From Actinomycetota bacterium (GTDB taxonomy: Bacteria > Actinomycetota > Thermoleophilia > Gaiellales > Gaiellaceae): a stretch of 34,472 nucleotides of DNA. Below, one piece after another: positions 2,686 through 15,237 of the stretch. The stretch covers positions 1-34,472 of the forward strand of contig VAXM01000006.1 of the NCBI GenBank assembly GCA_005883335.1, in the 5' to 3' direction. Made by a program: the position numbers and the translations under genes. Each line of letters opens with the position of its first letter. Position 1 is the first letter of the stretch. The notes under the pieces were generated by a model. The model did no database searches. It saw nothing but the letters and a program-made list of their open reading frames with translations, and had not been told where the DNA came from.

Positions 2686-3035
2686 TCGTCCTCGTCGAGC
2701 TGGCCGGCCTCGAGGTGCGCGGGCGCCACGGCGCCATGCCCGAGGAGCACGAGCGCGACCAGCCGTTCCTCTTCGACCTCGAGCTCGAATTGCCCGAGCC
2801 GCCAGCCGACCGCCTGGAGGAGACCGTCGACTACCGCGAGGTCGTCGAGCTCGTGCGAGAGGTCTCCGCGAGCCGGGAGCTCCAGCTGCTCGAGACGCTT
2901 GCCGCCACCGTTGCCGACGCGCTCATGCAGCGCTTCCCGCTCGAACGTGCCCGCGTGCGTGTCCGCAAGCCGGAGGTCCGGCTCGACGTACCGGTCGAGT
3001 GGACGGCCGCTACCGCCGAGCGCTCACGACGCTGA
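2682..3035 (+). CDS. folB: Dihydroneopterin aldolase
   Basis: A 117-residue protein of normal length for dihydroneopterin aldolase, which cleaves 7,8-dihydroneopterin to the hydroxymethyl-dihydropterin used by FolK. Diagnostic stretches are LEVRGRHGAMPEEHERDQPFL (the family's short N-terminal beta strand and conserved glutamates), VDYREVVELV, the middle LLETLAATVADALM helix and the C-terminal VRVRKPEV strand carrying the conserved Lys-Pro. It starts at ATG 2682, overlapping the TGA of folP, so translation is probably coupled. Its frame is the same as that of the N-terminal folP fragment, so a ribosome staying in that frame would read into folB. The 3' end overlaps the convergent protease gene by 26 bp, leaving no room for a separate terminator. 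Confidence 0.92.
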   Translation: MIVLVELAGLEVRGRHGAMPEEHERDQPFLFDLELELPEPPADRLEETVDYREVVELVREVSASRELQLLETLAATVADALMQRFPLERARVRVRKPEVRLDVPVEWTAATAERSRR

Positions 3036-13866: not shown

Positions 13867-15224
13867 CTCCCCAGCAGGCGGGACAGCTCGACCAGCGGCA
13901 GCAGGAAGTTCGTCTCAATCCAGGCGGGACGCCCGCGCTCCACGTAGCCCCCCAGCTGGTGCGCGCCGCGGTGGAGCCAGTATGCCGCGGCGACGGAGAG
14001 CAGTTGGTCGGAATCGGCCTCGAGCCCGAGGCGCTCACAGTAGGCCGCCGAGACACGGTCTCCGCCCTGCTCAGTCCAGGGCAGGAGCCACTCGACGAAC
14101 GCGCGGCCCCAGTTCAGCGCGCTCGGGCGGCGGGCCGCTACGAGCCGCAGGTGGAGCAGGTCGAGCAGTGCCGGGAAGCCTTGTCCTGCCACGTCCCAGT
14201 CGATCACTCCGGTCAGGCGCCCGCCTTCGGTCAGGAGGTTCCCGCTCCAGAAGTCGCCGTGCGCGAACCCTCGCGGGAAGCCGCTCAGCCGCTCCGCGAC
14301 GGTTCTTCCGAGGCGCAGCACCGTCTCCGCGTGCTCCGGCGGCCCGAGCCTCGCTACGAGCTCCGCGTCCGCGGGCGCCGCCTGCGGCTCGGCACCTCCC
14401 GCGCGATGCAGCTCGACCAGGAACTCGAGGCAGTCCTCGAGCAACGCTCCGTCGACGGCGGGAGAGCCCGATCTGCCGGGTAGCCGGCGTTCAAGCAACC
14501 AGTCGGCGAGACCCGTGCGGCCGTGCGCGACCGGCCACGGCACCCGCTCGCTCACCGCCGGCGGCGGACCGGCTTCGTGCAACGAATCGAGCACGGCGGC
14601 CGCCATCAGCAACTCTCCGCGTGCCGGGCCGACGGCGACCTTGAGCATTGTGCCGTTGGTGGCCGCCACGATGACGCCCTCGCGGACGAGCGGCGTATGC
14701 AGCACGAGCGGCGTGCCGAGCGCGCGTCCGGCCTCCTCGACGACCGCCTCGAACAGGCTCGTCCGCTCCTCCCGAAAGCCGAGCACGAGGGCGCGGCGCG
14801 GCAACCGCTCTGCGAACGACGTCCGCCGGCCGAGGCGCAGGTGAGGAAGCTGGAGCGGATGCGCCAGGTCGAAGCGGAGGACCTCCGTCCGCGGATAGAG
14901 CGGCGCGACCCGCCGGCGGGTTCGCTGCGTCTCGAGCGCGAGGCCGAGCCGGCGCCGCCCCCGGTCGAGCGCCCTGACGAGCTTGACGTCGCCTCCCTGC
15001 GGCGAGCGCCCGAGAGGGACGACCGCCACCTCGGCGTCGCCCCGCAGCTCCTCGGCCCGGCCGATCTCGACGTCCGGCTCGGCATCGACGAGGTCGGCGC
15101 CGGCCTCGGCGAGGGTCTCCCGGAGCTCGTCGTCGAGGACCCGGAAGCGTCGCGCCGAGGCCGGGATGACGGCGGCGAGCCAGCCGTGCGCGCTGCGGGC
15201 GGGCGCTGTGGCGCGGGCTACCAT
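13863..15224 (-). CDS. Aminoglycoside/choline-kinase-like phosphotransferase with extra N-terminal domain
   Basis: A 453-residue protein. The C-terminal two thirds is an APH-type kinase: a weak nucleotide-binding lobe (GTMLKVAVGPARGELLMAAAVL), the catalytic loop FAHGDFWSGNLL (about 318-329, HxDxxxxN with D replaced in the usual position by the family's common HGDFxxxN) and the metal-binding aspartate in VIDWDVAGQG (about 340). The N-terminal 150 residues (LDDELRETLAEAGADL onward) form a second domain I cannot name. In polysaccharide loci such kinases may phosphorylate a sugar or polyprenyl carrier; this is only inferred. Its start ATG lies inside a 20-bp palindrome shared with the divergent flippase gene. 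The reading frame stays open far upstream of 15224, across the flippase gene, but that part is antisense shadow. Confidence 0.8.
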   Translation of the reverse strand: MVARATAPARSAHGWLAAVIPASARRFRVLDDELRETLAEAGADLVDAEPDVEIGRAEELRGDAEVAVVPLGRSPQGGDVKLVRALDRGRRRLGLALETQRTRRRVAPLYPRTEVLRFDLAHPLQLPHLRLGRRTSFAERLPRRALVLGFREERTSLFEAVVEEAGRALGTPLVLHTPLVREGVIVAATNGTMLKVAVGPARGELLMAAAVLDSLHEAGPPPAVSERVPWPVAHGRTGLADWLLERRLPGRSGSPAVDGALLEDCLEFLVELHRAGGAEPQAAPADAELVARLGPPEHAETVLRLGRTVAERLSGFPRGFAHGDFWSGNLLTEGGRLTGVIDWDVAGQGFPALLDLLHLRLVAARRPSALNWGRAFVEWLLPWTEQGGDRVSAAYCERLGLEADSDQLLSVAAAYWLHRGAHQLGGYVERGRPAWIETNFLLPLVELSRLLGS

Positions 15225-15237
15225 GCGGGCATGGTAG
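15218..15237. promoter_or_regulatory. 20-bp palindrome holding two opposed start codons and two opposed -10-like hexamers
   Basis: Nine-base arms CTACCATGC and GCATGGTAG flank a central GG. On each strand the arm supplies TACCAT ending exactly 6 nt before the start codon supplied by the other arm (ATG 15231 plus; ATG 15224 minus). Each start codon is thus embedded in the opposite gene's putative -10. Confidence 0.6.

Follow-up and report, generated by a model that had tools for sequence, protein, structure and literature searches.

A 20-bp interrupted palindrome holding the start codons of a divergent flippase gene and a kinase-like gene is probably a compact bidirectional promoter of two leaderless mRNAs

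A flippase gene and a kinase-like gene lie divergently in the Thermoleophilia genome of an uncultured actinobacterium, their ATGs separated by 6 bp only, and the 20-bp site that holds both start codons is probably a bidirectional promoter driving two leaderless mRNAs with interlocked start sites; we regard this as the likeliest reading because leaderless starts are common in the genome. Interlocking of this kind is an uncommon and extremely tight form of the bidirectional promoter already known, and not a new type of switch. Both genes (Table 1) belong to the stretch of 34,472 nucleotides analyzed as a whole, hereafter the window, and the region surrounding them is of surface-polysaccharide type, encoding glycosyltransferases, a Wzz-like protein, a Wzy ligase, an acetyltransferase and a polysaccharide deacetylase. 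The kinase-like protein has about 190 N-terminal residues without Pfam match ahead of its APH domain. Since kinase homologues follow a GT4 glycosyltransferase in two relatives (loci L196 and L203), a role of this protein in surface-glycan modification rather than in drug resistance is suggested.

Table 1. Positions in the window of the two divergent genes and of the elements between them.
Feature	Position	Strand	Basis
Flippase gene, Wzx-like polysaccharide transporter, 455 aa	15231-16598	+	Pfam Polysacc_synt_3 PF13440, E 1e-6
Kinase-like gene, C-terminal APH phosphotransferase domain, 453 aa	13863-15224	-	Pfam APH PF01636, E 2e-17
Interrupted palindrome CTACCATGC-GG-GCATGGTAG	15218-15237	none	Read from sequence
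TACCAT, predicted -10 element of the flippase gene	15219-15224	+	TANNNT-N6-ATG, inside the genome-wide leaderless peak
TACCAT, predicted -10 element of the kinase-like gene	15231-15236	-	Same TANNNT-N6-ATG geometry on the opposite strand
Six-bp gap GCGGGC between both start codons and both -10 elements	15225-15230		Read from sequence

The layout claimed in a preliminary description of this DNA was confirmed by reading the sequence: the 20-mer CTACCATGCGGGCATGGTAG has a GG centre flanked by complementary 9-bp arms, and on both strands TACCAT ends 6 nt before an ATG. On the plus strand TACCAT is followed by six nucleotides and then by the flippase ATG (15231-15233), and on the minus strand TACCAT, read from 15236 to 15231, is followed by the same six nucleotides and by the ATG of the kinase-like gene (codon 15224-15222). 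Each ATG is also, as claimed, the reverse complement of the CAT that ends the opposing box, the kinase ATG being the complement of the last three bases of the plus-strand box and the minus-strand box being the complement of the flippase ATG GTA, and the predicted -10 elements interlock in this way with the opposing start codons. The wording 'perfect mirror' goes slightly too far, the GG centre not being self-complementary.

Both ATG 15224 and ATG 15231, which the preliminary description had assumed to be used, are very probably real starts according to their homologues. The flippase of G029, a genome of another genus, is 56% identical and aligns from residue 1 (MVESRAG vs. MVEGPSS), with equal length up to the conserved Y25, and the N-termini of the kinase homologues lie no more than a few residues from the proposed ATG 15224. 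A Shine-Dalgarno (SD) site was sought upstream of both start codons and was absent on either side, the best anti-SD duplexes (-2.7 and -1.8 kcal/mol) being less stable than the median for random 25-mers drawn from the window (-3.0 kcal/mol). Moreover, any mRNA with a leader would, in both directions, carry an out-of-frame ATG 8 nt ahead of the correct one; this ATG opens a 4-codon ORF that overlaps the true start (plus strand, ATG CGG GCA TGG TAG; minus strand, ATG CCC GCA TGG TAG), and leaderless initiation is favored for this reason too.

Leaderless starts preceded by a TANNNT element account for about 19% of actinobacterial genes on average (PMC3160421); the element is also described in Mycobacterium tuberculosis promoters, in which no -35 element is conserved (PMC3898074). 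No -35 element was visible by eye on either side of our site. Over 263 kb of this genome, ATG was preceded by TANNNT at a distance of 6, 7, and 8 nt in 7, 19, and 9 cases, respectively, vs. a background of about 2. Leaderless-like starts made up about 20% of the called genes, and 24-26% in two family members, values that depend on crude, composition-based gene calls and on a fragmented metagenome assembly. When tested, both genes conformed to the actinobacterial leaderless pattern (TANNNT 6-8 nt before the start, no SD), with a spacing of 6 nt where the most frequent spacing in the genome is 7 nt. That both mRNAs are leaderless is thus plausible and, judging from these signals, likely in this Thermoleophilia genome, and the earlier proposal that transcripts begin at the AUG in both directions agrees with the appearance of both genes and of roughly a fifth of the genes of the genome.

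The palindrome alone is at chance level, because 0.75 palindromes with 9-bp arms and a 2-nt centre are expected per window, vs. two present (at 15218 and 21351). The pattern TA...T plus ATG on both strands fixes five of the nine arm positions, and for the other four pairs to match as well the joint probability is about 0.02, given the base preferences seen at the leaderless starts of the genome, so that two superimposed promoters suffice to explain the palindrome. Its coincidence with two real start codons exceeds chance: with the two ATGs 6 bp apart, base composition would place T-A at -12/-11 on both sides with a P of about 5e-4. Codon 2 is GTA in both genes, a codon that represents 2.2% of the Val codons and 0.19% of all codons in the genome. 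In the 2.3-Mb genome the 20-mer is single copy, even allowing 3 mismatches, and TANCAT-N6-ATGNTA occurs once.

Bidirectional promoters have been defined by transcription starts 7-25 bp apart with reciprocal overlap of -10 elements and start points (PMC10268837), and the predicted separation at our site, 7 bp, falls on the lower edge of this definition. RNA polymerase would recognize TACCAT in either orientation and transcribe rightward from A15231, the A of the flippase ATG, or leftward from 15224, the A of the kinase ATG; both mRNAs would start at AUG and would be translated without an SD site. Position -7 of each promoter would be +1 of the other, the T at -7 in one direction pairing with the A at +1 in the other. 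With start points so close and so superimposed, simultaneous opening would be excluded and one polymerase at a time would open the site. Mutual exclusion is therefore a plausible steric consequence of the arrangement, in keeping with the steric exclusion described for bidirectional promoters, in which polymerases cannot open both directions together (PMC12825309). The same study found that the Escherichia coli bidirectional promoters tested are too weak at basal level for polymerase competition to matter, and that activating one direction tends to repress the other (PMC12825309). Hence, of the earlier statement that only one gene can be initiated at a time, the steric part stands, joint initiation being implausible on this reasoning and on the literature, but given the little basal competition in E. 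coli it need not matter physiologically. A regulatory role for the exclusion is possible but not indicated.

The relatives named by a genome scan with an alignment were Thermoleophilia and other actinobacterial MAGs, and the kinase and the flippase were immediate divergent neighbors in no relative examined. In G029 the flippase start reads CTACCATGCCCCGCAGATGGTAGAG, with the same two half-sites 9 nt apart (CTACCAT-N9-ATGGTAG); TACCAT is kept upstream of the flippase, a Wzy-type ligase gene lies on the other side of its start, and the kinase has its own leaderless-like start elsewhere (TAGCCT-N7-ATG). At this locus (L195, about 2985-3010, minus strand) the mirror ATG opens a 15-codon ORF, MVDPGTVDGPSGREP, whose TGA overlaps the ATG with which the divergent Wzy ligase gene probably starts; it is possibly a leaderless coupled leader peptide. 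In G028 the flippase also faces a Wzy gene, the opposite -10 elements (TATGCT/TACGAT, 3 bp apart) overlap, and the predicted start points are 10 bp apart. At two further loci, L196 and the Acidimicrobiales contig L203, what lies opposite the flippase is a glycosyltransferase-kinase operon with the kinase as second gene, so that the divergent orientation of kinase and flippase is kept with a glycosyltransferase between them; the divergent starts are about 60 bp apart (by eye), with leaderless-like -10 elements on both sides and no palindrome. G115 has a kinase homologue ahead of the flippase in the same orientation. The half-sites were found at changed spacing only in G029, the palindrome being absent at the other orthologous loci, and the same-genus genomes G001 and G002 are uninformative on conservation, because their flippase matches are only distant paralogues (34-36%) and the kinase has one short weak match in G001 and none in G002. 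Two tandem flippase homologues, 54-55% identical to that of the window and with an acetyltransferase gene between them, were observed on one 5-kb contig of another genome (L051; G017, contig C144).

Divergent leaderless or near-leaderless flippase pairs thus appear to recur, as far as start signals can be read from sequence, with a varying partner (Wzy ligase or glycosyltransferase) and spacing, and the version in the window is the most compressed among them. Conservation of the palindrome together with both ATGs, considered in the preliminary description, does not hold, the partner and the spacing of the flippase changing from one relative to another. For the refuting case named there, a relative with the gene pair but no palindrome, the nearest counterparts are L196 and L203, and these fit it only loosely because of their intervening glycosyltransferase gene. 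The orthologous loci diverge too far to reveal selection at individual bases. The flippase is often found in divergent leaderless pairs in surface-polysaccharide clusters. The site probably originated by loss or relocation of an intervening gene, which would have brought the kinase start beside the flippase start; in this lineage the kinase would then have become the first divergent gene, and the flippase ATGGTA, which is TACCAT on the opposite strand, would have served as its -10 element.

The mirror motif was hardly or not enriched over its reversed control outside this genome. TANCAT-N6-ATGNTA gave 10 matches in 103 family genomes vs. 6 in the reversed control, the 7-nt version of the motif gave 0 vs. 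3 in the same genomes, and 396 phylum genomes gave 131 vs. 121 (hand-summed). Among 50 loci inspected from the phylum genomes none had two convincing genes at the motif; only at L145 did both ORFs reach 60 codons, the partner ORF there having 67. Locus L053 of G074 was considered as a second divergent pair and rejected, its rightward ORF having no Pfam match and overlapping in antisense a GAF/histidine-kinase gene. Several of the family matches were AT-rich tandem 8-bp TANCATGN boxes, such as TAGCATGATAGCATGATA, lying near position 1501 of their loci (L055, L056/L061, L057, L058, and L060, from G090, G093, G014, and G035); in three genomes they stand just before a gene with a HisA-looking N-terminus (VIPAIDVL, by eye), and they are possibly the operator of a regulator in the family. 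About 1.28 Mb of sequence from this genome and from relatives was examined, and the leaderless divergent pairs that came nearest to this spacing had 19-26 bp between starts and shared their -10 elements or had them abutting, as in G020, where the palindrome GGTACGGTACC (about 530822-530842) would serve as -10 element both ways for a leaderless-like pair with 19 bp between starts. By their sequence these pairs resemble ordinary bidirectional promoters, the G020 one being textbook-like. With the motif hardly enriched and no convincing second case among the loci inspected, the site in the window looks like a single event and not like a class.

Other explanations of the site were weighed against a bidirectional promoter. 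It is rather doubtful, if worth some consideration, that only one TACCAT box, more likely that of the flippase, is a working promoter and that the other is a side effect of the start codons of the first gene, the second gene being transcribed weakly or from a promoter further inside its neighbor. Any TACCAT box automatically gives ATGGTA on the opposite strand, the flippase of G029 keeps its box though the kinase lies elsewhere, and a kinase that is the second gene of an operon, as in L196 and L203, needs no promoter of its own. Such a reading is, however, at odds with the lack of an SD site for a leadered transcript of either gene, with the out-of-frame ATG and overlapping 4-codon ORF that this transcript would meet either way, with the leaderless-like start that the kinase possesses in G029, and with the low probability of finding TA at the right distance on both sides. 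It is far less probable that one start has been misassigned, for instance that the kinase begins at a GTG 45 nt upstream after a GGAGG-like SD, in which case the genes would overlap and the mirror would be incidental. The kinase frame is indeed open far upstream and the minus-strand GGAGGGCCGGTG could be read as SD plus start, but the apparent SD consists of flippase codons read on the complementary strand, a start at the GTG would lengthen the protein by 15 residues that are not conserved, and the homologous kinases begin near the ATG (MDVAVSAPG in G029, MDRALPP in G028, MISGLHQHAW in the Acidimicrobiales relative), as the flippase ATG aligns with residue 1 of its G029 orthologue.

We consider it equally improbable that the palindrome is an operator, with a dimeric regulator binding its two arms across the GG centre and controlling both genes. 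The perfection of the 9-bp arms and the resemblance of the tandem TANCATGN boxes to the half-site would suit this explanation; it is disfavored by the genome holding no second copy within 3 mismatches, by the arms drifting to 9-nt spacing in G029 and being absent in other relatives, by the number of such palindromes expected in the window, and by the P of about 0.02 for symmetry beyond the promoter bases. A last possibility, unlikely in our judgment, is a reciprocal leaderless promoter in which each start codon is essential to the neighbor's promoter and which has been selected as an either/or control of flippase and phosphotransferase. Selection on the arrangement is not demonstrable, because the exact arrangement is kept in no relative, and the special symmetrical switch suggested in the preliminary description is unsupported, the motif not being enriched across the phylum and the palindrome being at chance level given two promoters.

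Read as a bidirectional promoter, the site shares several traits with known systems. The bidirectional promoters of Warman et al. (2021), as represented in the articles that cite them (PMC12825309; PMC10268837), have, as is predicted for the site, divergent starts a few bp apart, -10 bases and start points that overlap reciprocally, and one polymerase orientation at once. Their preferred separations, in the same accounts, are 18, 10, and 23 bp with one shared -10 element, whereas the site has a predicted 7 bp and two facing -10 elements, each holding the predicted opposite start point, and both its RNAs are predicted to be leaderless, with start codons that are part of the promoters. Actinobacterial leaderless genes, with TANNNT about 12 bp upstream in the descriptions drawn on here (PMC3160421; PMC3898074), resemble the two genes in their TANNNT-N6-ATG layout and lack of SD; unlike the usual case, two such starts are here interlocked on opposite strands. 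In M. tuberculosis the adjacent divergent genes prpD and Rv1129c have transcription starts mapped to both start codons (PMC3898074), and are thus comparable, without regard to spacing, for being divergent with both transcripts leaderless (in the window by prediction); interlocking of a start codon with the opposing -10 element is not described in the parts of that article consulted. The EcoRV restriction-modification system has overlapping divergent core promoters that polymerase cannot occupy together, but is controlled by a C protein and has no leaderless feature (PMC5333194), while the site has no known regulator. A limited literature search found no description of start codons inside the opposing -10 element on both sides.

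As a regulatory system the site is probably unexceptional. If both starts are used, it would come close to the limit of how densely two divergent genes can be packed, 18 bp holding both -10 elements together with the transcription and translation starts of both genes, and a single base change in either start codon would also be a promoter mutation of the other gene. The site would show cleanly whether bidirectional promoters whose starts lie 7 bp apart function and interfere with each other, and how leaderless genes withstand the compaction and rearrangement of genomes.
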